Below the pieces are notes generated by a model. It had not been told where the DNA came from, made no database searches, and saw only the letters and a program-made list of their open reading frames with translations. The translations under genes were made by a program, and so were the position numbers. From Pseudomonadota bacterium (lineage in GTDB: Bacteria; Pseudomonadota; Alphaproteobacteria; Rhizobiales; Pleomorphomonadaceae), in assembly GCA_018262575.1 (NCBI GenBank), contig JAGSYU010000008.1:1-46493 (forward strand): 46,493 nucleotides of DNA. Reading direction: 5' to 3'. This document shows, piece by piece, positions 22,637 through 35,453 of the stretch (position 1 is the first letter of the stretch; each line of letters starts with the position of its first letter).

Positions 22637-22711
22637 CGCCGCCTCACCTTTTCCCCTTGACCCGATAGCAGACAGCACCGACCTTGTCGCCCGAAAGGAT
22701 CAGGCGGAGCG

Positions 22712-23827
22712 ATGGCGGACAGGGACACGGAAGCGGAAGGCGGAACGCCAGATCTGCGGCGCGGCTGGACCACCGGCAGCTGCGCCACGGCCGCCGCTCG
22801 CGCCGCCTTCGAGGCTCTGGTCAGCGGCCGCTTTTCCGATCCCGTTACGGTGACGCTGCCGGGCGGCCAGACACCGGCCTTCGCCCTGGCGACCACCGCC
22901 ATCGGCAACGGCTGGGCGCGGGCCGGCATCGTCAAAGACGCTGGCGACGATCCCGACGTCACCCACGGCGCCCTCGTTCTGGCGACGGTGCGGCCGGCGG
23001 CGACCGGCGCCGGCCTGGTGTTTCGCGCCGGTCCTGGCGTCGGCACCGTCACTCGCCCCGGCCTGCCACTCGCCGTCGGCGAGCCGGCGATCAATCCGGT
23101 ACCGCGCGCCATGATCGCTCGGACGCTCGATGAGGCGCGCGCCGCCATCGGCGGCCCCGAGGACATCGAGGTGGAAATCTCGATCGACAACGGCGAGAAG
23201 CTGGCCGAGCGGACGCTCAACGGCCGGCTCGGCATCGTCGGCGGCCTTTCGATCCTCGGTACCACCGGTATCGTCATCCCCTTCTCCTGCGCCGCCTGGA
23301 TCGCCTCCATCCAGCGCGGCGTTGACGTGGCGCGGGCCTGCGGCTTCACCCATGTAGCGGCATCGACCGGCCACACGTCTGAAACAGCGGTGAAGGCGCT
23401 CCACGGCCTCGATGACATCCAGCTGATCGACATGGGCGACTTCGTCGGCGGTACGCTGAAATATCTCAGGAAGGCGCCGGTGCCGCGCGTGACGCTGGCG
23501 TTGGGTTTTGCCAAGGCGGTGAAGCTCGGCCAAGGGCTTCTCGATCTTCATTCCAAGCGCGGATCGGTCGACCTCGAAGCGTTGTCCGCCATTGTTGCCG
23601 ATCTCGGTGGCACCAGAGATCTCGTAGAGGCCGTGAAGGACGCCAACACCGCCCTTGAGGTGCTGGATCGCTGCCGTGCCGCCGGCCTCCCGGTCGCCGA
23701 GGCCGTGGCCGAGCGCGGTTTGGCGACGGCCGCCGCAGTGATCGCCGGCCGCGGCATGGCGCTGGAAGTCGTGCTGTTCGACCGGTCCGGCAGGCGGCTG
23801 GCCAGCACCGGCTTCCGAGACGTCTAG
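22712..23827 (+). CDS. cbiD: CbiD-type precorrin-5B C1-methyltransferase
   Basis: A 371-residue CbiD-family protein. In the anaerobic B12 route CbiD methylates C1 of cobalt-precorrin-5B; the aerobic route normally uses the unrelated CobF. The N-terminal [21 protein letters not shown] is the diagnostic CbiD motif, and [14 protein letters not shown] and [17 protein letters not shown] are later blocks. I see no CobF in the window. The gene is on the plus strand, opposite to most of the cluster, and its last four bases overlap the end of cobM. The ATG at 22712 has GGCGGAG just upstream. Confidence 0.93.
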
Positions 23828-24612
23828 GTTTCTTCCTCCCCCGCCCCGGCCCGCGAATCGCGCCCCCGGAAGCGGCGCTGATAGTCGGCCGAATAGAGGG
23901 CGCTCGCCCGGAAATCCTCGGCGCCCAGCACCCGCCCCACCAGGATGAGCGCCGTCCGTTCCATCGGCGTGTTCCGAAGTTCGCCGAGAATGGTAGCCAG
24001 CGTTCCCTTGACGATCCGCTCGTCCGGCCAGGTCACCCGGTAGACGACGGCAACCGGGCAGTCGGCACCATAGAAGGGGAGAAGTTCCTCGACGATGCGG
24101 TCGAGGACGTGGATGGAGAGGTGGAGGGCGAGCGTCGCGCCGGTGGCGGCGAAGGCCGACAACGTCTCCTTTGCCGGCATGGCCGAGGCGCGGCCGGAGG
24201 TGCGCGTCAGCACCAAGGATTGGCCGACCTCCGGCAGCGTCAGCTCGCGGCCGATCGCCGCAGCTGCCGCCGCGAAGGCCGGCACGCCGGGCGTCACGGT
24301 GTAGGGGATACCGTTCTTTTCCAGCAGGCGGATCTGCTCGCCGAGGGCGCTCCATACCGACAGATCGCCGGAGTGCAGCCGCGCCACGTCCTCGCCGGCC
24401 TGTTGCGCCCGGAGATACTCGGCCTCGATCTCCTCAAGCGACAGCGGCGCCGTATCGACGATGCGGGCGCCCACCGGGCAATGCGCCAGGATGGCCGGCG
24501 GAATCAGCGAGCCGGCGTAGAGGCAGACGGGACAGGCAGCGATCAGGTCGCGGCCGCGCAGCGTCAGCAAATCGGGTGCGCCGGGACCGGCACCGATGAA
24601 ATGGACGGTCAT
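23824..24612 (-). CDS. cobM: Precorrin-4 C11-methyltransferase
   Basis: A 262-residue SAM methyltransferase of the tetrapyrrole family that adds the C11 methyl group in corrin synthesis. The N-terminal loop [18 protein letters not shown] and [14 protein letters not shown] are family signatures, and [17 protein letters not shown] is the conserved middle block. The ATG at 24612 overlaps the cobE stop in ATGA. The 3' end overlaps the end of the opposing cbiD gene by four bases. Confidence 0.95.
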
Positions 24613-24989
24613 GGCAAAATCTCCTCGGCCACGGCGACGGTGACACCGCCTTCGGCACGGCGCGGAACGATGAGGCGGGCCCGACCGGCGAAGGCGGCGA
24701 GCGCGGCGGCTTCCGCTACCGATGGAATGCCGAAGCGGGCAAAGGCGGCCGATGACGGCGTGGCAATGCGATCGGCCATGGCGGAAAGCGCATCGCGTGA
24801 AAGAAAGACGAGCGGCAGGGCGAGACTCTCGGCCGCTTTGCACAGCCCCGCCTCCCCACGCTTGTCCTCTATGGTGAACAGGCCAACGGCGGGCGCGAGG
24901 CCGACGGTCGCCGCTTCAACCTGCCTGACGATCGACTCGGCCGACGTGCCCTTTCGACAGCCGACTCCGATGGCGAGCCTGCCACTCAC
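24609..24989 (-). CDS. cobE: CobE / CbiG C-terminal-like protein
   Basis: A 126-residue protein matching CobE and the C-terminal domain of CbiG, seen in [17 protein letters not shown] and [15 protein letters not shown]. Its exact step is not settled; CbiG opens the delta-lactone in the anaerobic route and CobE may act beside the methylases. I chose the GTG at 24989, which overlaps the cobL stop in GTGA; an ATG six codons upstream lies within cobL. It is joined by 4-base overlaps to both cobL and cobM. Confidence 0.85.
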
Positions 24990-26206
24990 GACTTCACCCA
25001 GGTCCACTGCACCACCGGCAACGCAGGCCGTAGCGCGTGGAAATCGCCGATCCGATCAAGCCGGGATATGGCGATCTGTGTCAGCTCGCCACCCAGCCGT
25101 GCCTGCAGGGCGAAGACCTCGGCCGTCGTTTCCAATGTCACGGCGTTGATCACCAGGCGGCCGCCGGATTTGAGTCGGTCGAGACAGGCGTCGACGACGC
25201 CGGGATCGCCCGAGCCGCCCCCGATGAAGATGGCGTCGGGATCGGGCAGAGCGTCAAGGCCGGCCGGCGCCTTCGACTCGACCACCTGCAATTCGGGCAC
25301 GCCGAAGGCCAGCGCGTTGCGCCCGACGCGGGCGGCGCGGGGCGGATTCTCCTCGATGGCGAAGGCGTGGAGCGACGGATCGCCGAGCATCCATTCGATG
25401 GCAACCGAGCCCGAGCCGGCGCCGACGTCCCAAAGCACGTTGCCGCGCGTCGGCCTCAGCGCAGCGACGGTGAGCGCCCGCACCTCGCGCTTCGAGATCT
25501 GGCCATCGTGTTCGAACCAGTCGTCCGGGAGGCCGGGCGTGAAAGGAATGACGCGGGCGTCTGGCCCCCCCTCTATCTCCACGGCAACGAGATTGAGCGG
25601 ATCGATCGTCTCGACGTCAAAAGCATTGGCCCGCGCCGAGCGGCGGCGCTCGCGCGGTCCACCCATCGCCTCGAGCACGGTGAGTCGGCTTTGGCCGAGG
25701 CCACGTGCCGTCAGGAGTGACGCAAGTTTTGCCGGCGTCGTGCCGTCCCAGGATAGCGCCAGTAATCTGGCTCCCGGCTGGGCATGCGGCAGGATGCGCT
25801 CAAGCGCCCTGCCGTGCAGGCTGACGCGGACGACATCCTGGCCCGGCCAACCGAGTCGGGCGGCGGCGAGAGCGAAGGAAGAGGGCGCCGGCAGCACGGT
25901 CATTTCCCGGGGATCAATGATCTCGGCGAGGAGCGAGCCGACGCCATGGAAGAAGGGATCGCCGGAGGCGAGCACCACAACGGGGCTGCCGCGCCGGGCG
26001 AGAATGGCCGGAAAGGCGTCCTGCAGCGGCGATGGCCAGGCCAGCGAAACGGCCGGATCGGCTTTGACGAGGTCGAGGTGGCGGCGGCCACCTACGATGA
26101 AACCCGCTTGTGCGAAAGTCGAAACTGCCGCAGGAGAGAGACCGTCGAGACCGTCCTCTCCGAGGCCGACGATCGTCAGCCAGGGTGAAAGGGAGGTTTC
26201 AGCCAT
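24986..26206 (-). CDS. cobL: Precorrin-6Y C5,15-methyltransferase (decarboxylating)
   Basis: A 406-residue two-domain enzyme that methylates C5 and C15 and decarboxylates the ring side chain. The N-terminal half is CbiE-like (TIVGLGEDGLDGLSPAA, then VVVLASGDPFFHGVG). The C-terminal half is CbiT-like with the SAM loop NVLWDVGAGSGSVAIEWM and AIFIGGGSGDPG. The ATG at 26206 has GGAG upstream. Its start codon overlaps the best cobK start on the other strand within CATG. It begins a second minus-strand block (cobL-cobE-cobM) 753 bp after cobJ. Confidence 0.96.
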   Translation of the reverse strand: MAETSLSPWLTIVGLGEDGLDGLSPAAVSTFAQAGFIVGGRRHLDLVKADPAVSLAWPSPLQDAFPAILARRGSPVVVLASGDPFFHGVGSLLAEIIDPREMTVLPAPSSFALAAARLGWPGQDVVRVSLHGRALERILPHAQPGARLLALSWDGTTPAKLASLLTARGLGQSRLTVLEAMGGPRERRRSARANAFDVETIDPLNLVAVEIEGGPDARVIPFTPGLPDDWFEHDGQISKREVRALTVAALRPTRGNVLWDVGAGSGSVAIEWMLGDPSLHAFAIEENPPRAARVGRNALAFGVPELQVVESKAPAGLDALPDPDAIFIGGGSGDPGVVDACLDRLKSGGRLVINAVTLETTAEVFALQARLGGELTQIAISRLDRIGDFHALRPALPVVQWTWVKS

Positions 26207-26984
26207 GGGGGACTCCGCAAGACAGATGCGCATTCTCGTCCTGGGTGGAACCACCGAGGCGTCGCGCCTCTCCGAGCGCCTGCAAAAACGCCAGGATATC
26301 TGGGCGTTGCTGTCGCTGGCCGGGCGCACCCACGAGCCGGCCGCCCAGGCGCTCAACACCCGCGTCGGCGGCTTCGGCGGCGTCGAGGGCCTTGCCGCTT
26401 TCCTGAGGGATCAGCATATCGATCTCGTCATTGACGCGACCCATCCCTTCGCCGCCCGCATTTCGGCCAACGCCGTGGCGGCCTGCGAGACAACCGGCGT
26501 GCCGCTCGTCCGTTACACCCGCGAGCCGTGGAAGCCGGTGGCCGGCGACACCTGGATCGAGGTGCCCGACCTCGACACCGCCTGCGCCGCACTCGGGCCC
26601 GAGCCGAAATGCGTGTTCCTCACCGTCGGACGGCTCGGCCTTTCCGCTTTCGAGGCGGCACCGCAGCACCATTATATCGTCCGCTCCATCGACCCGCCGC
26701 ATGAATTGAACCTGCCGGACTACCGGCTGCTGCTGGAGCGCGGGCCGTTCGACGAGGAATCGCAGGCCCGGCTGATGCAAGCCGAGCGGGTGGAGATCAT
26801 GGTCACCAAGAACGCTGGTGGCGATGCCACCTATGGCAAGGTGGCGGCGGCTCGCCGCCTGGGCTTGCCGGTGATCATGGTGGAACCGCCCGAACCGGTG
26901 ACCGTCACCACCTATCACGAGCTCGACGATGTGATGGCCGATGTCGGGGCGCGGCTCGCTCATGCCGCCCCGCCGCTGGCCTGA
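26205..26984 (+). CDS. cobK: Precorrin-6A reductase
   Basis: A 259-residue NADPH-dependent reductase that reduces precorrin-6A to dihydroprecorrin-6A. The start region MRILVLGGTTEASRLSERL is the family N-terminus, and VIDATHPFAARISANAV and MVTKNAGGDATYGKVAAAR are the conserved later blocks. Two starts are possible: 26205, which has GGGAGG 8 bases upstream, and 26226, which begins right at MRILVL. The first has the better ribosome site. The gene lies antisense in the gap between cobJ and cobL, and its end overlaps the end of cobJ by 25 bp. Confidence 0.94.
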   Translation: MGDSARQMRILVLGGTTEASRLSERLQKRQDIWALLSLAGRTHEPAAQALNTRVGGFGGVEGLAAFLRDQHIDLVIDATHPFAARISANAVAACETTGVPLVRYTREPWKPVAGDTWIEVPDLDTACAALGPEPKCVFLTVGRLGLSAFEAAPQHHYIVRSIDPPHELNLPDYRLLLERGPFDEESQARLMQAERVEIMVTKNAGGDATYGKVAAARRLGLPVIMVEPPEPVTVTTYHELDDVMADVGARLAHAAPPLA

Positions 26985-27727
26985 CGCGGACTGAGAATCC
27001 ACGGCGTGTCGCCCGGTCGATCGATCTGCCGGCTTTGCGACGAGCCGATGATCACCAGCGTCGCCATGTCGACGATCGACGGATCGGCTTCTGCAAGCGT
27101 CGTCACGACAATGCGCTCGTCCGGCCGACCAACGGCGCGGGCGAAGGCGACCGGCGTCGAGCCGGCTTTCAAGCTCCGCAAGAGATCGAAGGCCTCGAAG
27201 ATGCGGGCTGGCCGCGCCTTCGACGCTGGATTGTAAAGGGCAATGACGAAGTCGCCATCGGCGGCGGCCCGCAACCGCTTTTCGACGAGCGCCCAAGGCT
27301 TCAGGTTGTCGGATAGCGAGATGGCACAGAAGTCGTGGCCGAGTGGCGCACCGAGCCGCGCCGCCGCCGCTTGCATGGCCGAAACGCCGGGCATCACCGT
27401 CACGGACAGGTGGCGAGCGTTTGGGTCCGCCTCCACCGCCTCGACGACGGCCGCCGCCATGGCAAAGACGCCAGGGTCGCCGCCTGAGACGACGGCGACG
27501 AGGCGGCCGGCGCGGGCAAGATCGATAGCAAGGCGCGCCCGTTCGAGCTCGACGCGGTTGTCGCTGCCATGCCGCATCTGGCCGGGTTGTTCCGGGCAGC
27601 GGGCGAGATAGGGCTCGTAACCGACAAGGTCGGTTGCCCGTTCGAGCGCGGCGCTCGCCTCCGGCGTCCGCCACAGCTCGGGACCGGGACCAAGGCCGAC
27701 CACCAGGATCTCGCCTGCTCCGCTCAT
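26960..27727 (-). CDS. cobJ: Precorrin-3B C17-methyltransferase
   Basis: A 255-residue SAM methyltransferase that methylates C17 and drives ring contraction. The N-terminal ILVVGLGPGPELWRTPEA, then LVAVVSGGDPGVFAMA and VMPGVSAMQAAAARLGAPLG, and ALYNPASKARP are CobJ/CbiH signatures. Its start overlaps the cobI stop by four bases (ATGA). The 3' end overlaps the end of the opposing cobK by 25 bp. It is the last gene of the uninterrupted riboswitch-linked block. Confidence 0.96.
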   Translation of the reverse strand: MSGAGEILVVGLGPGPELWRTPEASAALERATDLVGYEPYLARCPEQPGQMRHGSDNRVELERARLAIDLARAGRLVAVVSGGDPGVFAMAAAVVEAVEADPNARHLSVTVMPGVSAMQAAAARLGAPLGHDFCAISLSDNLKPWALVEKRLRAAADGDFVIALYNPASKARPARIFEAFDLLRSLKAGSTPVAFARAVGRPDERIVVTTLAEADPSIVDMATLVIIGSSQSRQIDRPGDTPWILSPRQASGGAA

Positions 27728-28464
27728 GGCCGCCGTCCCTCGCCGCCGATCAGGATCAGGGAGAAATAAGGGGACGCATCATCCGTCTTGCCGGATAGCG
27801 GCAGCACGACTTCTCCGTCCATCGAGCCGCGCTCGATGTAGACGGCGCGATGCGCAAGGCCGGCCCGCGCAATCGCCTGCCTGACTTTCGGAAAGTTGGA
27901 GCCGAGCTTCATGATCACCGCCGCGTCGGCGCCCTGGAGACGGGCGACAAGATCGTCCTCGGAAAGCGTGCCCGGCAACACGGCGAGGACGTCATCACCC
28001 CAGGTCATCGGCAAGCCGGCCGCCGATGCGCAGCCGGAGAAGCCGGTGACGCCGGGGGTGATCCGCACCGGAAAACGGTCCTTGAGGCGCACGTAGAGAT
28101 GCATGAACGAGCCGTAGAACAGCGGGTCGCCCTCGGCGATCAGCACCACGTCACGACCAGCGCCCAGATGAGCCGCCAGCGCCTCGGCCGCTTCGGCGTA
28201 GAAGCCGCCGACCTCGCGCACATAAAGCGGATCGGAAAAACTCATCTCGGTGGTGAGCGGATAGTGAAGCGGCAGTTCCTCGGTCCCCGGCCGGACATAG
28301 GGCTCGACGATGGTGCGGGCGTGGCCGCGCCGACCCTTCTTGGCGAAATAGGCGAGAACGGGCGCCGCCCCGATCAGCCGCGCCGCCCGGACCGTGACGA
28401 GTTCGGGATCGCCGGGGCCGACGCCGACACCGTGCAGCGTGCCGGGAGGAACCGTTGCCGTCAT
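27724..28464 (-). CDS. cobI: Precorrin-2 C20-methyltransferase
   Basis: A 246-residue SAM methyltransferase acting on C20 of precorrin-2, the first committed step toward the corrin. The motifs are [22 protein letters not shown] at the N-terminus, [19 protein letters not shown] in the middle, and [20 protein letters not shown]. Its ATG overlaps the cobH stop and its stop overlaps the cobJ start, both by four bases, indicating coupled translation. Confidence 0.96.
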
Positions 28465-29087
28465 TCGCGATCGCTCGCCAGGGCGTTGACGGTAGCGGCG
28501 GCCATGGCCGAGCCGCCCTTGCGCCCACGCACCACAATATAAGGCACTCGGCCGTCAGAGATCAGCGCTTCCTTGGATTCGGCGGCACCGACGAAGCCTA
28601 CGGGCATGCCGATGATCGCCGCTGGCCGAGGAGCGCCGGCATCCAGCATTTCGAGGAGATGGAAGAGAGCAGTCGGCGCATTGCCGATGGCGACGACGGC
28701 GCCCTTGAGGCGATCGCCCCACAGCATCATGGCCGCCGCCGTGCGGGTGTTGCCGATGGTGAGCGCCAGCGTCGGGACGGAGGGGTCGTCGAGGGTGCAG
28801 ATCACGTCGTTGCTAGCCGGCAGGCGGCCACGGGTGACGCCATTGGCTACCATGCGGGAATCGCAGATCACCGGAGCGCCGGCCTGGAGCGCCGCTTTCG
28901 CCGCGGCGACGGCACCGGGGCCGAAGGCGAGGTCGGCGGCCACCTCCACCATGCCGGCGGAGTGGATGACGCGCACGGCTACTTTTTCTTCCTCGGGCGG
29001 GAAGCGGGCGAGGTCAGCCTCGGCGCGGATGATGGCAAAGGAGCGACGGTAGATTTCCGCACCGTCGCGGATGTAGTCGTGGGTCAT
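28461..29087 (-). CDS. cobH: Precorrin-8X methylmutase
   Basis: A 208-residue enzyme that moves the methyl group from C11 to C12, giving hydrogenobyrinic acid. The N-terminal [22 protein letters not shown] and the active-site histidine in [11 protein letters not shown] (about residue 42) are intact. [32 protein letters not shown] and [19 protein letters not shown] complete the family pattern. It is joined by 4-base overlaps to cobG upstream and cobI downstream. Confidence 0.97.
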
Positions 29088-30304
29088 CTGTCAATCATCC
29101 CGGAACGAAGAAGCGCCTCGACCGCCGCAGGCGACAGGCCAGAGAGGCGGGCTGGGTCGGTTGGTCTGCCGTCTAGCACGAGGTCGAGGCCGCCGTCACG
29201 GCCGACCAGCGTCACGGCGTGGCTTGCTGAACTGGCGCAGCCCTTTTCACAGCCCGAGACGTGCAGCCAGACGCCGCGAGCCTCGGAGTTCAGCGCCGCG
29301 AGGCGGCGGGCGAGGTCCCGTGTTTCAACACTCGCCGAAGCGCAGGCCGGCGCGCCAGGGCAGGCGGCAACGGCCAGTAGTGGATCGTCGGACAAAGCGA
29401 CGAGGCCGGCTTCGGCAACCCGTGGCAGGACATTCGCTGGCGCGCCCGCTAACAAAATGGCGCGGAACGGAGTCAGCCGAATATCGACGGTGGCGAGGTC
29501 GGCGAGAAGATGAAGCTGGCCAGCGGTCAGCCGGCCAAAGGGCAGGCCGACGCCGACGTGCGTTGGAAAGGCGCCGATCAGCGGCACGGCGAGGTGGCGG
29601 CGAGCTGGCAAGAGGCCTGCCGGTGCAAGCCCGGCGGCGGCGAAGATGGCTTCGGCACCTATTTGGGCAACCAGTGCCGCCATGCGGCGCGGTGGCGGAT
29701 CGATGCATCGCGCGAGGTCGAGGAAGACCTGGGCAATGCGGAGCGCGGCGGCCACCGCCATCCCGCCCGGCACCTTCACCGCTTGGACGTTACCATCGAG
29801 CGACAGCGTCACGTCGCCGCCGGCAAACCGCAGGCGCACGTCGGCCGGCACGTCGGCGAGGGCGAAGTGACCGCCGTCGTCGATCGAGAAGCCGAACTTC
29901 GCGGGCAGAGCATGGAAAAAATCGTCGGCGACAAGCGCCGTTTCCAATTGCTTTGCCAGCGCGAAGGCGTCGCCCTCGGCCATCTCATCTCGATCGGACA
30001 GGGGGGACGCGACGACATTGCGAACTGCCTCGGCCCCGGCGTCCGCATCGAGGAGGCCAAGCTCGGCAAGCCCCGTGATGGCGGCGGACAGGTGATCGTC
30101 GCGGATGCCCCGGAGCTGCAAGCCCCCCCGCCGGCCGAGGTCGATCTCGCCGTTGCCGTGGCGGGCGGCAAGGTCTGCGACGGCGCGGGCTGCGTCCGGC
30201 GCCAGGCGGCCGCCGGTGATCCGCAGGCGCAGGATCAGGCCATCGCCGCTCCGCATGGGGCGGAGCGCGCCGGGACACCAGCCGCGAACGAGGGTATCGC
30301 TCAT
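29084..30304 (-). CDS. cobG: Precorrin-3B synthase (oxygen-dependent)
   Basis: A 406-residue member of the nitrite/sulfite-reductase fold that uses O2 to hydroxylate precorrin-3A. Its presence marks the aerobic B12 route. The repeat start [22 protein letters not shown] and the block [17 protein letters not shown] are typical. The 4Fe-4S ligands are expected in [12 protein letters not shown] and [12 protein letters not shown] near the C-terminus. The ATG at 30304 overlaps the cobN stop, and its own stop overlaps cobH. Confidence 0.95.
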
Positions 30305-33300
30305 CCGAGGCGCGCCTCCGTTTCGGCAAGGCGGGCGGCCACCGAATTGCGGCGGAGCGTCCAGGCGCCGCGATCGATGACGTTGCGAAGGCGGAGAAGC
30401 GTGTCGCGGGCCGCCGCCGGATTGGCATCGATCAGGAAGTCGCGAACGCGGTCGTCACCGAAGGTGGCGTCGAACAGCCGGTCGAAATGTCGTTCATCGA
30501 CGGTATCCGACAATGTTGCGAAGGCGCAGAGGTTGGCGAGGGCCTCGCAGATCTCGGCGGCGCCGCGATGGCCATGGCGCATCTGGCCGGCGATCCAGCG
30601 CGGATTGGCGGCACGGCCGTGGACGATGCGGCTGATCTCCTCCTGGAGCGTGCGCGCCTTTGGCGCGTCGCCGGTGACGTCGACGTGATAGAGCGCCGCT
30701 CGGCCGCCCAGCCGTTCGGCTGCCGCCGCAAAGCCGCCCTCGTGAGCCGGAAAGGCGTCATTGGACAGGATATCCTGGCCATCGAGGTCCTGCACATGAA
30801 CGAAGGCATCGGCGGCGGCAACGCGCGCCGCAAAACCCTCGGGGTCGGCAACGTCGCCCTCGCTCGCATAGGCGTGGCCGGAGGCGGCGAGATAGGCATC
30901 GGCGAGCACCGCCCGATCGGCGGCAAGATCGTCCGGGGCCATCTCGCCGAGGCCGCTGCCGAAGGCCCCGGGCGCGGCGCCGTAGACGCGGGCCGGCGCG
31001 GCGGCGCGGCAGGCGGCGAGCGGATTGGTCTCTGCGTCCTCGTCGAGCGCTGCCACTGCCTTCACCGCCTGGTTGAACAGGACGATCTGACCGGGAAAGA
31101 CATCGCGGTAGAGACCGGAGACGCGTAGCGTTACGTCGACGCGCGGCCGACCAAGCCGGGCGGGAGCGAGCACCGTGAAGCCGGAAACACGGCCTGAGGC
31201 CGCGTCCCACGTCGGCCTGACGCCAAGGAGCGCCAGCGCTTGCGCGATATCGTCGCCGCCGGTACGCATCGACGCTGACGCCCAGACATCGAGCACGATG
31301 GATTTTGGCCAGTCGCCGTGGTCCTCGACGTAGCGGGCGACCACCTCCTCGGCGGTGCGGGTACCAATCTCCATGGCGGTGCGTGTCGGCACGGCGCGCG
31401 GATCGACGGAGTAAAGGTTACGTCCGGTCGGCAGCACGTCGAGCCGTTTCGGCCCCGGAGCACCGGACGGACCCGATGCGACGCGCCGACCGTCGAGCGC
31501 GGTCAGCAGCCCGTCGCGCTCGGCCTCGGCCGAGGCGAGGAAGGCGCCGGTGGCCGCAAGATCGCCACCAAGAGCACCAAGATGGGCAGCGACGCGGGCT
31601 TGATCCGGCGCCCGGCCGAACACGTGCAGGCCGTCGGTGATGCGCATGTCCTTGACGTCGCAGATCCAGGCGTCGAGCCGCGCCAGCTTGTCGGCCGGAT
31701 CGAGATCGGAGGACAGGCCGGCCGCCTCGGCGATGCCGGCCGCTTCCGCCTTGTCGATCAGGATGGCGGCAAGATGCTTGGCCCGCCGCGGATCGAGTGC
31801 CTGGGCGTTGGCGAATTCGTCGACCAGCATTTCGATGTCGGCGATGTCGCCGTGGGTGCCAGCGCGGGTCAAGGGCGGCGTCAGATGGCCGAGCGTAACA
31901 GCGGCGATACGGCGCTTGGCCTGCGCCGCCTCGCCGGGGTTGTTGACGATAAAGGGATAGACGACCGGCAGGCCGTCCGTCAGTGCCGCCGGGGCGCAGT
32001 CGGCGGAGAGACCGGCCGCCTTGCCCGGCAACCATTCGAGCGTGCCATGGGTGCCGAGATGGATCATGGCATGGACGTCGAAGCCGTGCCTCAGCCAGAG
32101 ATAGAACGCGGCATAGGCATGTCGCGGCGGCAGGTTGGGATCGTGATGATCGACAGTGCGGGAGTCGGCTCGGCCACGATCGGGCTGCACGGCGATGATG
32201 AGGTTGCCCGCGATGATCGCTGCGAGGCGGAAGGCGCCCTCCCTCACCGTTGGGTCGGCCTCCGGCTCACCCCAGGTGGTCAGCATCGACGCGCGCAATG
32301 CCTCCGGTCGGTCGGAAAGCCAACGGCGGTAGTCGGCAAGCGGGATATCAAGCGTCGCCTTGCCGCTCTCCAACGCGGCGATCAGCACCTTCTCGTCCGG
32401 TAGCGCCCCAACCTTAAATCCGGCGGTGCGAAGATCGTCGGCGATGGCGAGAAGCGAGGCCGGCCCGTCGAGGCCAACGGCATAGGCGGTACGGCCGCCC
32501 TTGCCGGAATAGTTGGAGAGAATGAGGCCGACACGACGATCATCGCGTGGCGTTCGTCTCAGCCGCGTCCAGCCATCCACGAGACGAACGAGGCGGGCGA
32601 CGCCGTCGGCGTCCGGCTTGTGGCGGATCGGCGTATATTCGAAGGCGTCGGCACGGTCGGCCGGCGCCTTGAAGCTGACGACCGGGCCGCCGAGACGGCC
32701 GTCGACCTCCGGCAGTACCACGCTCATGGCGAGATCGGTGGCCGATAGCCCGCGCGATGAGGCGGCCCAGGCCTCTCGAGACAGGGTGGAGAGCGGTGCC
32801 TGGATCACCGGCACGTCGGCGGTGTCGAGAAGCGTCGTACCGTCGTCGCGACGGGCGGAAAAGGCGGTGCAGTTGACGATCACGTCCGGCCGAAACGTGG
32901 CGATGGCCTCGCTGAGCGGGCCGGCCACCTCGGGATCTTTCAGCGAGGTGACCCAGACCGGCAGCACTGCGAAGCCGGATCCTGCCAGAGCCTCGGTGAT
33001 CGCTTCGATCGGCGCGGCGTCACCAGCATTGATGAGCGCCCTGTAGCCAACGACAAGGGCCCGGCCGTCGCCCCCGACCTGCGAAAAGACACCGAAGGGC
33101 GGCTGCGGCGTCGGCTCGACCCACGTCGTGGCATGCCCCAGGCGGGCGGCAATGAAGGCGAGCGACGCGGCAATGTTGTCGGGGCCGCCAAACCCGAACC
33201 AGCGCGTCAGGCGATCAAGATCGTCCGCCGGCAGCGTTGATGCCTCGGCAAGACGCGGGTCGGGCCTGTCGTCGCCGGGGATCAGCGCAAGGGCGATGCC

Positions 33301-33621
33301 TTTTGAGCGCGCCAGCATGGAGAGTTCGTCGACGCCATAGCGCCAATAGTCGGCGCCGCCAAGCAGCCGCACCAGCACAAAGCGGGCTTTCGACACCACC
33401 TTTTCGAGGTAGAGGTCGACCGAATAGGGGTGACGCAGCGCGGCAAGCGAAGCAAGGCGAAGGCTCGGCGCAGCGGGGCCGAGCCGGCCGTGCATGGCGG
33501 CGACGAGGCCGAGGTCGCTGTCGGAAAAGGACAGCACGACGATGTCGGCCGGCGTCTGGCCGAGATCGACCGCCGCGACGCTATCGTCGAGCGAGCGAAT
33601 CTGTTCGGCCAGAATGTGCAC
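30301..33621 (-). CDS. cobN: Aerobic cobaltochelatase subunit CobN
   Basis: The 1106-residue large subunit of the ATP-dependent cobaltochelatase, which with CobS and CobT inserts Co(II) into hydrogenobyrinic acid a,c-diamide. It belongs to the CobN/BchH/ChlH superfamily. Key blocks are MIHLGTHGTLEWLPGKAAGLS, LPVVYPFIVNNPGEAAQAKRR, NLYSVDPRAVPTRTAMEIG and DVTLRVSGLYRDVFPGQI. It starts with GTG at 33621, with AAGGAGG 6 bases upstream. It is complete but shorter than the roughly 1270 residues I recall for the Pseudomonas denitrificans protein. CobS and CobT are not in the window. Confidence 0.95.
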   Translation of the reverse strand: MHILAEQIRSLDDSVAAVDLGQTPADIVVLSFSDSDLGLVAAMHGRLGPAAPSLRLASLAALRHPYSVDLYLEKVVSKARFVLVRLLGGADYWRYGVDELSMLARSKGIALALIPGDDRPDPRLAEASTLPADDLDRLTRWFGFGGPDNIAASLAFIAARLGHATTWVEPTPQPPFGVFSQVGGDGRALVVGYRALINAGDAAPIEAITEALAGSGFAVLPVWVTSLKDPEVAGPLSEAIATFRPDVIVNCTAFSARRDDGTTLLDTADVPVIQAPLSTLSREAWAASSRGLSATDLAMSVVLPEVDGRLGGPVVSFKAPADRADAFEYTPIRHKPDADGVARLVRLVDGWTRLRRTPRDDRRVGLILSNYSGKGGRTAYAVGLDGPASLLAIADDLRTAGFKVGALPDEKVLIAALESGKATLDIPLADYRRWLSDRPEALRASMLTTWGEPEADPTVREGAFRLAAIIAGNLIIAVQPDRGRADSRTVDHHDPNLPPRHAYAAFYLWLRHGFDVHAMIHLGTHGTLEWLPGKAAGLSADCAPAALTDGLPVVYPFIVNNPGEAAQAKRRIAAVTLGHLTPPLTRAGTHGDIADIEMLVDEFANAQALDPRRAKHLAAILIDKAEAAGIAEAAGLSSDLDPADKLARLDAWICDVKDMRITDGLHVFGRAPDQARVAAHLGALGGDLAATGAFLASAEAERDGLLTALDGRRVASGPSGAPGPKRLDVLPTGRNLYSVDPRAVPTRTAMEIGTRTAEEVVARYVEDHGDWPKSIVLDVWASASMRTGGDDIAQALALLGVRPTWDAASGRVSGFTVLAPARLGRPRVDVTLRVSGLYRDVFPGQIVLFNQAVKAVAALDEDAETNPLAACRAAAPARVYGAAPGAFGSGLGEMAPDDLAADRAVLADAYLAASGHAYASEGDVADPEGFAARVAAADAFVHVQDLDGQDILSNDAFPAHEGGFAAAAERLGGRAALYHVDVTGDAPKARTLQEEISRIVHGRAANPRWIAGQMRHGHRGAAEICEALANLCAFATLSDTVDERHFDRLFDATFGDDRVRDFLIDANPAAARDTLLRLRNVIDRGAWTLRRNSVAARLAETEARLG

Positions 33622-33637: not shown

Positions 33638-34666
33638 TCAGGCGAGGGCGGCGCGGACGGCGGCTTCGTCGATGTCCCGCTCGCCGATCACCACCAGCGC
33701 ACTGCGGCGTGGTCCGGCCGGCCAAGGCCGGTCGAAGGCGTGGCGGAACCGACCGCCGACGCCCTGCACCAAGAGGCGCATCGGCTTGCCGGCGATCTCC
33801 ACGAAGCCCTTGATGCGCAGGATATCGTGCGCCTCGGCGACCGCCCTCAACCGGGCGATCAGGCTGTCCGGATCGCTGGCAGCGCCGATCTCGACGGCGA
33901 AGGTTGAGAAGTCGTCGTGATCGTGGTCGCCGAGACCATCGTGATGGCTCGGCCGGCCCGCCAGATCGTCTTCGGCGGCGGCGGCGAGGCCGAGCAGGAT
34001 TTCCGGGGCGATCTCGCCCTCGGAGGTCGGCACGATGCGCACCGCCTTTGGCAGCGAAGCGGCGATGCTCTCGCAGACGCGGGCCAACTCGTCGGGCGTG
34101 AGCAGATCGGCCTTGTTGAGCACCACGAGGTCGGCGGCGAGAAGCTGGTCCTCGTAGACCTCTTCGAGCGGATTGTCGTGATCGACCGACGGGTCGTCCT
34201 GGCGCTGGGCAAGCACGGCCTCGGGATCGTCGGCGAAACGGCCGGCGGCGACAGCGGCGGCATCGACCACGGCGATCACGCCATCGACGGTTAGGCGGGC
34301 ACGCACGTCCGGCCAGTCGAAGGCCTTGATCAGCGGCTTGGGCAGGGCGAGACCGGAGGTTTCGACGATGATGTGGTCGGGCCGGCGGGCGCCTTTGGTC
34401 AGCGCATCGATGGCCGGCAGGAAGTCGTCGGCGACGGTGCAGCAGAGGCAGCCATTGGCGAGCTCGACGATCGCCTCCTCCGGACAATCGGCGGCGCCGC
34501 AGGATTTGAGGATGTCGCCATCGACGCCGACGTCGCCGAATTCGTTGACGATAAGCGCCAGGCGGCGGCCACCGGCCCGCTCAATGACATGGCGGATCAG
34601 CGTCGTCTTGCCCGAGCCGAGAAAGCCGGTAACGATGGTGACGGGGATCTTGGACTGGGTGTTCAT
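33638..34666 (-). CDS. cobW: CobW-type cobalt metallochaperone GTPase
   Basis: A 342-residue G3E-family GTPase (COG0523) that supplies Co(II) for corrin synthesis. Walker A is GFLGSGKTT at residues 14-22. The metal-binding CxCC motif is NGCLCCTV with Cys73, Cys75 and Cys76. The guanine-specificity motif NKAD is at 184-187. A His/Asp-rich stretch HHDGLGDHDHDD at 241-252 could hold extra metal. It ends 16 bp before cobN, and its ATG at 34666 touches the DUF1636 stop by one base. Confidence 0.95.
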   Translation of the reverse strand: MNTQSKIPVTIVTGFLGSGKTTLIRHVIERAGGRRLALIVNEFGDVGVDGDILKSCGAADCPEEAIVELANGCLCCTVADDFLPAIDALTKGARRPDHIIVETSGLALPKPLIKAFDWPDVRARLTVDGVIAVVDAAAVAAGRFADDPEAVLAQRQDDPSVDHDNPLEEVYEDQLLAADLVVLNKADLLTPDELARVCESIAASLPKAVRIVPTSEGEIAPEILLGLAAAAEDDLAGRPSHHDGLGDHDHDDFSTFAVEIGAASDPDSLIARLRAVAEAHDILRIKGFVEIAGKPMRLLVQGVGGRFRHAFDRPWPAGPRRSALVVIGERDIDEAAVRAALA

Positions 34667-35028
34667 CAGCGGGTCTCCGGCTGCGGCGGGATGCGGGCGA
34701 CGAGGCCCGATTTCAGGAGCGGCGGCCGGTCGCGCCAGGGCACGCGGCCATCATCGCTTTCGGCATAGCGTTCGGCAGCGACAATCACCTCGGTCGGATC
34801 GGCCGCGTCGGCGGCGACATAGGTCCATCTGTCCGGAGCCGTGAAGGCGACGGTGACCGGCCGCTTGCAGACCGACAGGCAGTCGACGCCGGAAAGCCGG
34901 ATATCACTCCGGCCGTTGAGCAAGTCGCCGAGGACGGCGTGCAAGCGGGCGCCGGCCCGGCAGGCATCGTCATCGCCTGCGGTGCGGCAGGAGAGGCAAA
35001 CGTGAAGCGTGACCGGGCGCGCCGTCAT
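34666..35028 (-). CDS. DUF1636 protein, predicted metal/iron-sulfur binding
   Basis: A 120-residue protein of the DUF1636 family, which has a thioredoxin-like 2Fe-2S ferredoxin pattern. Cysteines at residues 11, 14, 23, 50 and 54 (HVCLSC, DACRAG, DCLSVCKRP) fit cluster or metal binding. The family often sits in cobalamin loci. It is the first conserved gene after the B12 riboswitch and directly precedes cobW, so a role in metal or electron supply for cobalt insertion is plausible but unproven. The ATG at 35028 overlaps the stop of a 20-codon upstream reading frame. Confidence 0.85.
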   Translation of the reverse strand: MTARPVTLHVCLSCRTAGDDDACRAGARLHAVLGDLLNGRSDIRLSGVDCLSVCKRPVTVAFTAPDRWTYVAADAADPTEVIVAAERYAESDDGRVPWRDRPPLLKSGLVARIPPQPETR

Positions 35029-35087: not shown

Positions 35088-35129
35088 GGTCAGGTCCTTT
35101 CCCGCCCCACCGGCGGTGTCGACTTTCGC

Positions 35130-35308
35130 GCGCGGCGGCAGGTCTCCTGGCTAGCGGTTCGTCGTCGGACGCGGCCTTCCCGATCTTTCGATCAGTGGCA
35201 CGCTGGGCATCCGGCTCGCCGCTCACAGTTGCGGGGGCAGCTGCGGTTTTCGGGACTTTCCCGACTCCGCATTCCCTCTTTCGCCCTCCCCAGAGAGGAG
35301 GGACCGTC
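35130..35308 (-). ncRNA. Cobalamin (adenosylcobalamin) riboswitch
   Basis: On the minus strand the aptamer core is clear: GGTCCC near 35305, then a G-rich stem with AGAGGGAAT, the block CTGCCCCCGCAACTGTGAGCGG at about 35240-35220 (read in parts), GCCACTG near 35200, and the B12 box AGCCAGGAGACCTGCC at 35152-35137. These are the conserved elements of the class. It lies upstream of DUF1636-cobW-cobN and should turn the operon down when B12 is abundant. Confidence 0.95.
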
Positions 35309-35453
35309 GCGCCCGGCCATTTGCGGCCTGTTGCGAGGCAAAGTCAACCGAGCGGCAAGGCGCCATCCTTTACGCCCCCTTAAACCGCCGCATTTAGGGT
35401 AAATCGGAGGCTCCACGGGCCAACGTGGCCGGACGAACGAGTAACGGCGGGCG
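35309..35453. promoter_or_regulatory. Shared upstream region of the cob operon and the PBP gene
   Basis: 145 bp between the riboswitch 5' end and the plus-strand penicillin-binding protein start. Promoters in both directions must lie here, but I cannot place -35/-10 boxes with confidence. TAACGGCGGGCG precedes the PBP start. Confidence 0.4.

Follow-up and report, generated by a model that had tools for sequence, protein, structure and literature searches.

The 46,493-nucleotide stretch analysed here (the window: contig JAGSYU010000008.1, positions 1 to 46,493, assembly GCA_018262575.1) comes from an alphaproteobacterium of the Pleomorphomonadaceae. It carries cobK, the gene for precorrin-6A reductase, on the plus strand, wedged without a free base into a minus-strand operon for aerobic vitamin B12 (cobalamin) biosynthesis that starts at a cobalamin riboswitch. 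A promoter of its own is strongly indicated for this inner gene by comparative sequence evidence, and it is very probably written antisense within codons 1-37 of the neighbouring gene cobL, with a core at about 26107-26136. The cobK mRNA would then begin with a short leader and a ribosome site, followed by the ATG at 26205. Polymerases starting at the riboswitch would read through cobJ and across cobK to reach cobL, cobE and cobM. Whenever the operon is on, RNA antisense to the entire cobK message would be made, with cobK transcription converging on it from within cobL. Taken as a whole, this account, an own promoter in cobL together with read-through from the riboswitch, appears to us on balance the probable one. 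The features of the cobK locus are as follows.

26205..26984, plus strand: cobK, precorrin-6A reductase (PF02571, CbiJ/CobK; NF005968)
26204..26207, both strands: shared start CATG, read from the sequence
26091..26204, plus strand: conserved block in cobL codons 1-38, putative cobK promoter and leader (nucleotide and synonymous conservation)
26107..26136, plus strand: putative core promoter (recurrent CTTG; the rest predicted)
26107-26110, plus strand: CTTG, a -35-like box that recurs across loci in three codon phases
about 26130-26136, plus strand: weak predicted -10
near 26143, plus strand: predicted cobK transcription start, placed by position only
26190..26196, plus strand: AGGGAGG, cobK ribosome-binding site inside cobL codons 4-6, read from the sequence
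24986..26206, minus strand: cobL, a CbiE+CbiT fusion (TIGR02467, TIGR02469)
26216-26213, minus strand: GGAG, ribosome site of cobL inside cobK, read from the sequence
26960..27727, minus strand: cobJ (TIGR01466), its last 25 bp overlapping the end of cobK
26207..26959, minus strand: putative stretch of operon RNA antisense to cobK, 753 nt

The layout and gene identities proposed in a first-pass annotation of this DNA were borne out by the sequence and by family models. The product of the antisense gene matches PF02571 with 234.3 bits (cut-off 28.6, E 1.8e-69) and NF005968 with 315 bits (cut-off 231), and its gene is 94% identical to cobK of Pleomorphomonas oryzae DSM 16300 (L151), in whose GTDB genus the window falls. 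On the minus strand, cobJ and cobL are separated by 753 bp (26207-26959), a gap that cobK fills with no free base on either side; its 3' end overlaps cobJ by the 25 bp that had been claimed (26960-26984), and the CATG at 26204-26207 does contain both ATGs, that of cobL on the minus strand and that of cobK on the plus strand. The annotation had also given cobK's start at 26205 the best ribosome site, and AGGGAGG indeed precedes this ATG with a spacing of 8 nt, while the in-frame alternative ATG at 26226 is without one. Both the ATG at 26205 and AGGGAGG are retained in 12 close genomes of the genus and are changed in L042 and L043, two more distant members.

The first line of evidence for the promoter is an exceptional conservation of the 5' end of cobL. 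A codon-by-codon comparison was made of 12 genomes from the genus (cobL was available in 11, that of L035 not being recovered, and cobB in 8), and 12 cob genes were scanned in 4155 windows of 25 codons, for which the ratio of observed to expected synonymous change had a mean of 1.03 and a standard deviation of 0.19. The lowest value among all windows, 0.18, belongs to cobL codons 2-26, with the next lowest at 0.43; over the first 30 codons of cobL the ratio is 0.24. Where all 11 cobL sequences keep the same residue, the codon itself is invariant at 22 of 30 positions in codons 2-37, compared with 32 of 245 in the rest of the gene (p 9e-12), and when L041 is left out (10 sequences) these figures become 30 of 32 and 36 of 258 (p 3e-20). 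At the nucleotide level, only 6 of the 114 positions of the block 26091-26204 vary among 11 genomes (the window and L031-L040), and 16 do so once L041 is included; in the first 11 genomes, the adjoining upstream stretch varies at 48 of 106 positions. In L041 the promoter-side half is kept, with 2 of 59 positions differing from the window, and the leader-side half is looser, with 11 of 55. The profile of GC content at third codon positions has only a slight AT enrichment at the cobL start, like other gene starts. The idea that a 141-bp block here is a mobile or repeated element was rejected, as it has a single full match in its own genome.

Weaker dips in synonymous change at the cobL 5' end were also found in other clades: 0.55 in the genus of G053 (23 loci; probably Bradyrhizobium, the DNA being 74-80% identical to that of the named locus L229), 0.40 in Mesorhizobium, 0.65 in an Agrobacterium-like set, 0.61 in g110 and 0.71 in Rhizobium/Ensifer. 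The Azospirillum set, with 3 loci, is too small for this comparison. The cobL window is the lowest of all only in the window's genus and in the Agrobacterium-like set; the other sets mostly have windows that are equal or lower, including three in cobG in Mesorhizobium, one in cobK in the G053 genus, and the end of cobG in Rhizobium/Ensifer.

The second line of evidence is a CTTG box that recurs across clades at loci of what we call layout A (cobL< cobK> cobJ<). For these tests, loci L031-L041 were excluded and the window was kept; 8 of the 111 layout A loci had no cobL anchor, which left 103. Counted from the EDG glycine of cobL, CAAG in the cobL sense, that is CTTG on the cobK strand, has its maxima at +22 (22 loci), +26 (16) and +42 (8), in three codon phases and over differing residues (AS or SS, AK, and QA). 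CTTG occurs on the cobK strand between +20 and +46 in 51 of the 103 loci, compared with none of 18 control cobL genes without an inverted cobK as neighbour (24 loci given, 23 cobL matches, 18 anchored; Fisher 3e-5). Against synonymous shuffles matched for protein and codon usage, CTTG reaches a z of 11.6 and is the first of all 256 tetramers in over-representation; because L044 and L152 are the same contig, the full counts may include a few duplicates, and on 80 de-duplicated loci z is 9.7. Since other conserved peptides (TKN in cobK, and cobL at about 696 nt) also gave high z values, matching for codon pairs was applied, under which 52 loci were observed with CTTG against 22.9 expected (z 8.2), the best values elsewhere being 4.2 in cobL away from its 5' end and 4.6 in cobK. 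The choice of codons points in the same direction. Residue pairs AS are written with CAAG in 20 of 21 cases at the target and in 102 of 1768 elsewhere in cob genes of the same loci, AK in 16 of 20 compared with 358 of 746, and QA in 8 of 13 compared with 194 of 1044. The earlier deduction that a promoter of cobK must lie inside cobL is thus supported by both the synonymous constraint and the recurrent CTTG.

Several observations weaken the case for this promoter. CTTG is missing between +20 and +46 in 52 of the 103 loci. Microvirga has no dip at the cobL 5' end, and in Rhodobacterales the dip is weak (0.83). CTTG also peaks at other conserved peptides, in cobL at about 696 nt (z 8.2), in cobK at about 624 (z 6.8) and in cobI at about 96 (z 6.1); these peaks are probably due to codon-pair bias, yet together with another region of cobL that reaches 62% of loci they mean that the shuffle z values are inflated. 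The loci are phylogenetically non-independent, the tetramer was chosen after the alignments had been viewed, and the control set is small, with 0.46 CTTG matches expected from its own codon usage. A scan of 23700-28500 for consensus sigma-70 promoters gave no match, and the window's -10 is poor. Passages of a study of transcription starts in Sinorhizobium meliloti describe the sigma-70 -10 region as poorly conserved in that species and raise the speculation of RpoD promoters in which little beyond a TTG motif is retained (PMC3616915), a speculation that a CTTG box with a weak -10 would fit. The -10 at 26130-26136 and the start site near 26143 are accordingly given as predictions from sequence. 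A weighted score for the consensus CTTGAC-N17-CTATAT was higher at the cobL 5' end (mean 7.17, 122 loci) than further in (6.54, 610 segments), and was not relied on because part of the -10 derives from the conserved EDG codons. The main texts of the S. meliloti start-site and small RNA papers do not mention cobK, cobL or cobalamin, nor does that of the Methylorubrum start-site paper mention cobK or cobalamin.

The layout itself is old and widespread, occurring in many Alphaproteobacteria, and is not peculiar to the window. Layout A was found in 14 of 14 genomes of the genus, in 14 of 37 loci fetched from the order and family, and in 19 of 70 fetched from the class; the 70 class loci represent 79 matching class genomes, and the 51 loci of the other set represent 52 matching genomes. 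It was also found in 76 of 80 named loci, which are the best 80 matches of a scan biased towards this layout, because its 14-sequence query alignment came wholly from layout A loci and only the best 80 matches were taken. Within these best 80 matches it occurs in Mesorhizobium, Sinorhizobium, Rhizobium, Bradyrhizobium, Microvirga, Methylobacterium, Bosea, Azospirillum, Acetobacter, Gluconobacter, Ruegeria, Paracoccus, Sphingomonas and Novosphingobium, and outside the alphaproteobacteria in a few beta- and gammaproteobacteria (Acidovorax, Tepidicella, Aidingimonas). Details of the junctions recur as well. Among 122 layout A loci, 9 without the cobK motif were set aside, and the CATG is shared in 81 of the remaining 113 (69 of 101 once the 12 close genomes of the genus are taken out). 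L042 and L043, which are more distant members of the genus, do not have it. The relative frame of cobK and cobL is distributed over the three phases as 90/23/0, where about one third each would be expected by chance, related loci being non-independent. The end of cobK overlaps cobJ in 101 of 110 layout A loci outside the 12 close genomes, by 19-58 bp in 98 of them.

The most frequent other arrangement is layout B (cbiD> cobK>), with 13 of 37 order and family loci and 38 of 70 class loci; cobK and cobL are co-directional (cobK> cobL>) in four order loci. Layout B loci (L098-L130), found in many alphaproteobacteria, have cobK co-directional with cbiD and next after it. There cobK often converges on cobM, cobL lies at another place in the cluster, and cobK is again opposite in strand to cobM and cobJ.

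Part of the layout has already been published, and what is new here is the promoter address in cobL, the finding that the shared CATG recurs, and the view of how broadly the layout occurs. In passages on the cobF-cobM cluster of Pseudomonas denitrificans SC510 and Ensifer adhaerens, adjacent pairs among cobH-I-J-K-L are all reported to overlap in Ensifer, Rhizobium and P. denitrificans SC510, and these passages hold no promoter, shared-start or antisense analysis (PMC4070679). The fetched S. meliloti and Ensifer loci resemble that cluster in that cobK is inverted; unlike the window, they are without cbiD within the fetched stretch. Two public plasmid records annotate the same inverted cobK. 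In Nitratireductor pOM-1 it is annotated as overlapping cobL by 2 bp and cobJ by 37 bp. Rhizobium sp. Q54 plasmid 7 shares with the window a plus-strand cbiD in addition, but its annotated cobL and cobK starts lie one base apart, with no overlap. None of the publications among the matches listed treats cobK as antisense or noncontiguous.

The first-pass annotation had likened the locus to a noncontiguous operon of the Staphylococcus type, and here the anatomy stood: a gene transcribed in the opposite direction lies between the genes of an operon. The likeness holds for anatomy only. In the menE-menC-MW1733-ytkD-MW1731 operon of Staphylococcus aureus, co-transcription, processing by RNase III and reciprocal control are reported, according to a review (PMC7154746). 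As in that men operon, an opposite-strand gene stands amid same-strand pathway genes, and a read-through mRNA would fully overlap it. On the other hand, the inner gene of the window is part of the same pathway as its neighbours; its start codon has bases in common with that of the next operon gene, within whose codons its promoter apparently lies. By this analogy, the cobK locus is built like, and possibly works like, a noncontiguous operon, in which case the two RNAs might regulate each other by polymerase collision or RNase III.

If the read-through is real, a widespread and long-kept B12 operon layout would be a noncontiguous operon. It would also be a conserved and easily manipulated system, with a riboswitch as input and one inverted pathway gene, in which to ask whether antisense transcription in operons is regulation or noise. 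As the layout is old and widespread, the question of mutual regulation between opposing RNAs can be asked in ordinary soil bacteria, and its hosts include a B12 producer line as well as legume symbionts. From a practical point of view, cobK expression would be expected to suffer if codons 1-37 of cobL were recoded, for instance during strain engineering.

What keeps cobK inverted is a separate matter. One explanation is a frozen gene order, in which cobK has a promoter as any gene needs and the antisense RNA, if made, is a non-regulatory by-product; we give it nearly even chances. Layout A is not required, since more of the class loci have layout B (38 of 70) than layout A (19 of 70), and whole-gene synonymous change in cobK is low (0.79) in the window's genus only, the other sets having 0.93-1.13. 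Moreover, a test of the antisense stretch for C over G (Rho sites) gave the same result as controls (p 0.45); this reveals no adaptation to read-through, which counts against that part of our account, and no selection on the antisense RNA, which favours a frozen order. Inertia fits less well with the exact shared start and the tail overlap, which are kept in many lineages though gaps of a few bases seem easily acquired. The opposite proposal is that selection, not inertia, keeps cobK inverted, its promoter and start codon being placed within cobL so that read-through from the riboswitch and cobK transcription work against each other. The two would then form a B12-sensitive sense/antisense pair by which CobK is set against the remaining enzymes of the corrin ring in much of the Alphaproteobacteria, and the locus would be a noncontiguous operon that is ancient and internal to one pathway. 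We regard this proposal as speculative and quite unlikely.

The proposed read-through concerns the operon beyond the cobK locus, which reads on the minus strand riboswitch, DUF1636, cobW, cobN, cobG, cobH, cobI, cobJ, [cobK inverted], cobL, cobE, cobM. The remaining features are the following.

35120..35323, minus strand: cobalamin riboswitch at the operon head (RF00174, 118.3 bits)
34666..35028, minus strand: DUF1636 gene, first of the operon (PF07845, E 1.4e-26)
33638..34666, minus strand: cobW (TIGR02475)
30301..33621, minus strand: cobN (NF008973)
29084..30304, minus strand: cobG (TIGR02435)
28461..29087, minus strand: cobH (NF006136)
27724..28464, minus strand: cobI (NF004647, TIGR01467)
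24609..24989, minus strand: cobE, CbiG C-terminal type (PF01890 on 24609-25007); its GTG at 24989 overlaps the cobL stop by 4 bp
23824..24612, minus strand: cobM (TIGR01465)
22712..23827, plus strand: cbiD, the second plus-strand gene (NF000849, TIGR00312); its stop overlaps the cobM stop by 4 bp

The aptamer lies on the operon strand, 5' of the first gene, and is the sole Rfam match at gathering score in the window; 6 of the 7 genus loci searched have a cobalamin riboswitch, L043 being without. The 4-base overlaps that had been claimed for the junctions are exact at cobN/cobG, cobG/cobH, cobH/cobI, cobI/cobJ and cobE/cobM, and at cobL/cobE the claim depends on GTG 24989 being the start codon of cobE, whose longest open frame begins at GTG 25007. 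A scan for intrinsic-terminator-like sites on the minus strand of the gap 26207-26959 found none, the scan being a weak one.

The contrary view would divide the minus strand into two units, the riboswitch operon ending in or before cobK and cobL-E-M having a promoter in the 5' part of cobK, with no full-length antisense RNA; the divergent promoters of cobK and cobL would each sit inside the other gene. For a separate cobL promoter, which by the first-pass annotation would have to lie inside cobK, no comparable signal was found in that 5' part. The cobL strand has only a minor excess of CTTG there, in 10 of 86 loci where 3.7 were expected (z 3.7; positions 24-60 nt of cobK). This excess is far below that in cobL (z 11.1 in the same scan) and is not among the top cobK windows after codon-pair matching, and CTTG is no commoner in the 5' part of inverted cobK (10 of 100) than of non-inverted cobK (6 of 67). 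Codons 1-25 of cobK are synonymously constrained as well (0.51-0.54 in the genus, 0.60 in the G053 genus); with the CTTG excess, this could hide a cobL promoter, which tells against our account, and it could leave room for one of another type. The constraint is nevertheless far weaker than that in cobL and may reflect only start codons and ribosome sites. An untranslated stretch of 753 nt would face Rho, a further point for two units; in such an arrangement, on the other hand, cobL-E-M would escape the riboswitch. All in all, two separate units seem rather unlikely. The lack of a comparable cobL promoter signal fits, without proving it, read-through from the riboswitch-headed operon across cobK, by which cobL-E-M would most likely be served.

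The conserved block might alternatively be a structured RNA masking the ribosome site, either a riboswitch-like cobK leader or an element of the cobL start. Pairing is possible between TGAAACC (26098-26104) and GGTTTCA (26195-26201), which would close three hairpins, and the block is almost wholly invariant, beyond the needs of a bare promoter. The pairing arms are altered in L041, L042 and L043, no Rfam match falls on the block, and such a structure was rejected upon folding, which gave no excess stability on either strand (z-scores -1.05, -0.89 and 0.01). We thus consider it improbable.

It is very improbable that cobK is read from the cbiD promoter on a plus-strand transcript running antisense through cobM-E-L, which would make two interleaved operons. 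The gene cbiD is likewise on the plus strand, 2.4 kb upstream of cobK, and the two are adjacent in layout B, but some layout A loci have no cbiD within about 4 kb of cobK (S. meliloti L172 and six Mesorhizobium loci tested), and the local promoter-like signal makes a cbiD promoter unnecessary.

Least probable of all is a coding role for the block, with cobK starting at the in-frame ATG 26097 (retained in the 12 close genus genomes) and overlapping cobL antisense by 110 bp: the two frames share third positions, which would stay fairly free and yet are nearly invariant, L042 and L043 are without that ATG and differ from the window at 21 of the 59 positions of 26091-26149, and the family models start at about residue 8-9 of the 26205 product, so that dual coding was rejected.

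Codons 367-382 of cobG (29206-29159, minus strand) form a nucleotide-conserved patch that ends about 70 nt before cobH. The cobG window from codon 367 has the second-lowest synonymous change in the genus (0.43), with a CTA codon kept in 11 of the 11 sequences shown, and low windows at the cobG 3' end occur also in Rhizobium/Ensifer (0.46) and Mesorhizobium (0.24). The patch possibly acts as another promoter within the operon, serving cobH and the genes after it, and is one of the points against the account we prefer. A further low window lies in cobN (codons 639-663, about 31707-31633, minus strand; 0.44).

Some cobK-like matches stand apart from any cluster. In G017, of the same family (L048), the match has two in-frame stops (TGA, TAG) and no recognised cob neighbours, L019 being flagged alongside; those in L046 and L057 are likewise without recognised neighbours.

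With regard to gene content, the cluster combines the aerobic cobG with cbiD (22712-23827) and a cobE of CbiG C-terminal type (24609-25007), and no match to cobF above cut-off was found among the window proteins searched, a subset of all window proteins. The starts of cobB and cbiD lie back to back with a gap of 33 bp (22678-22712), and the first 25 codons of both are constrained (0.60 in cobB and 0.59 in cbiD), which suggests a compact divergent promoter region.

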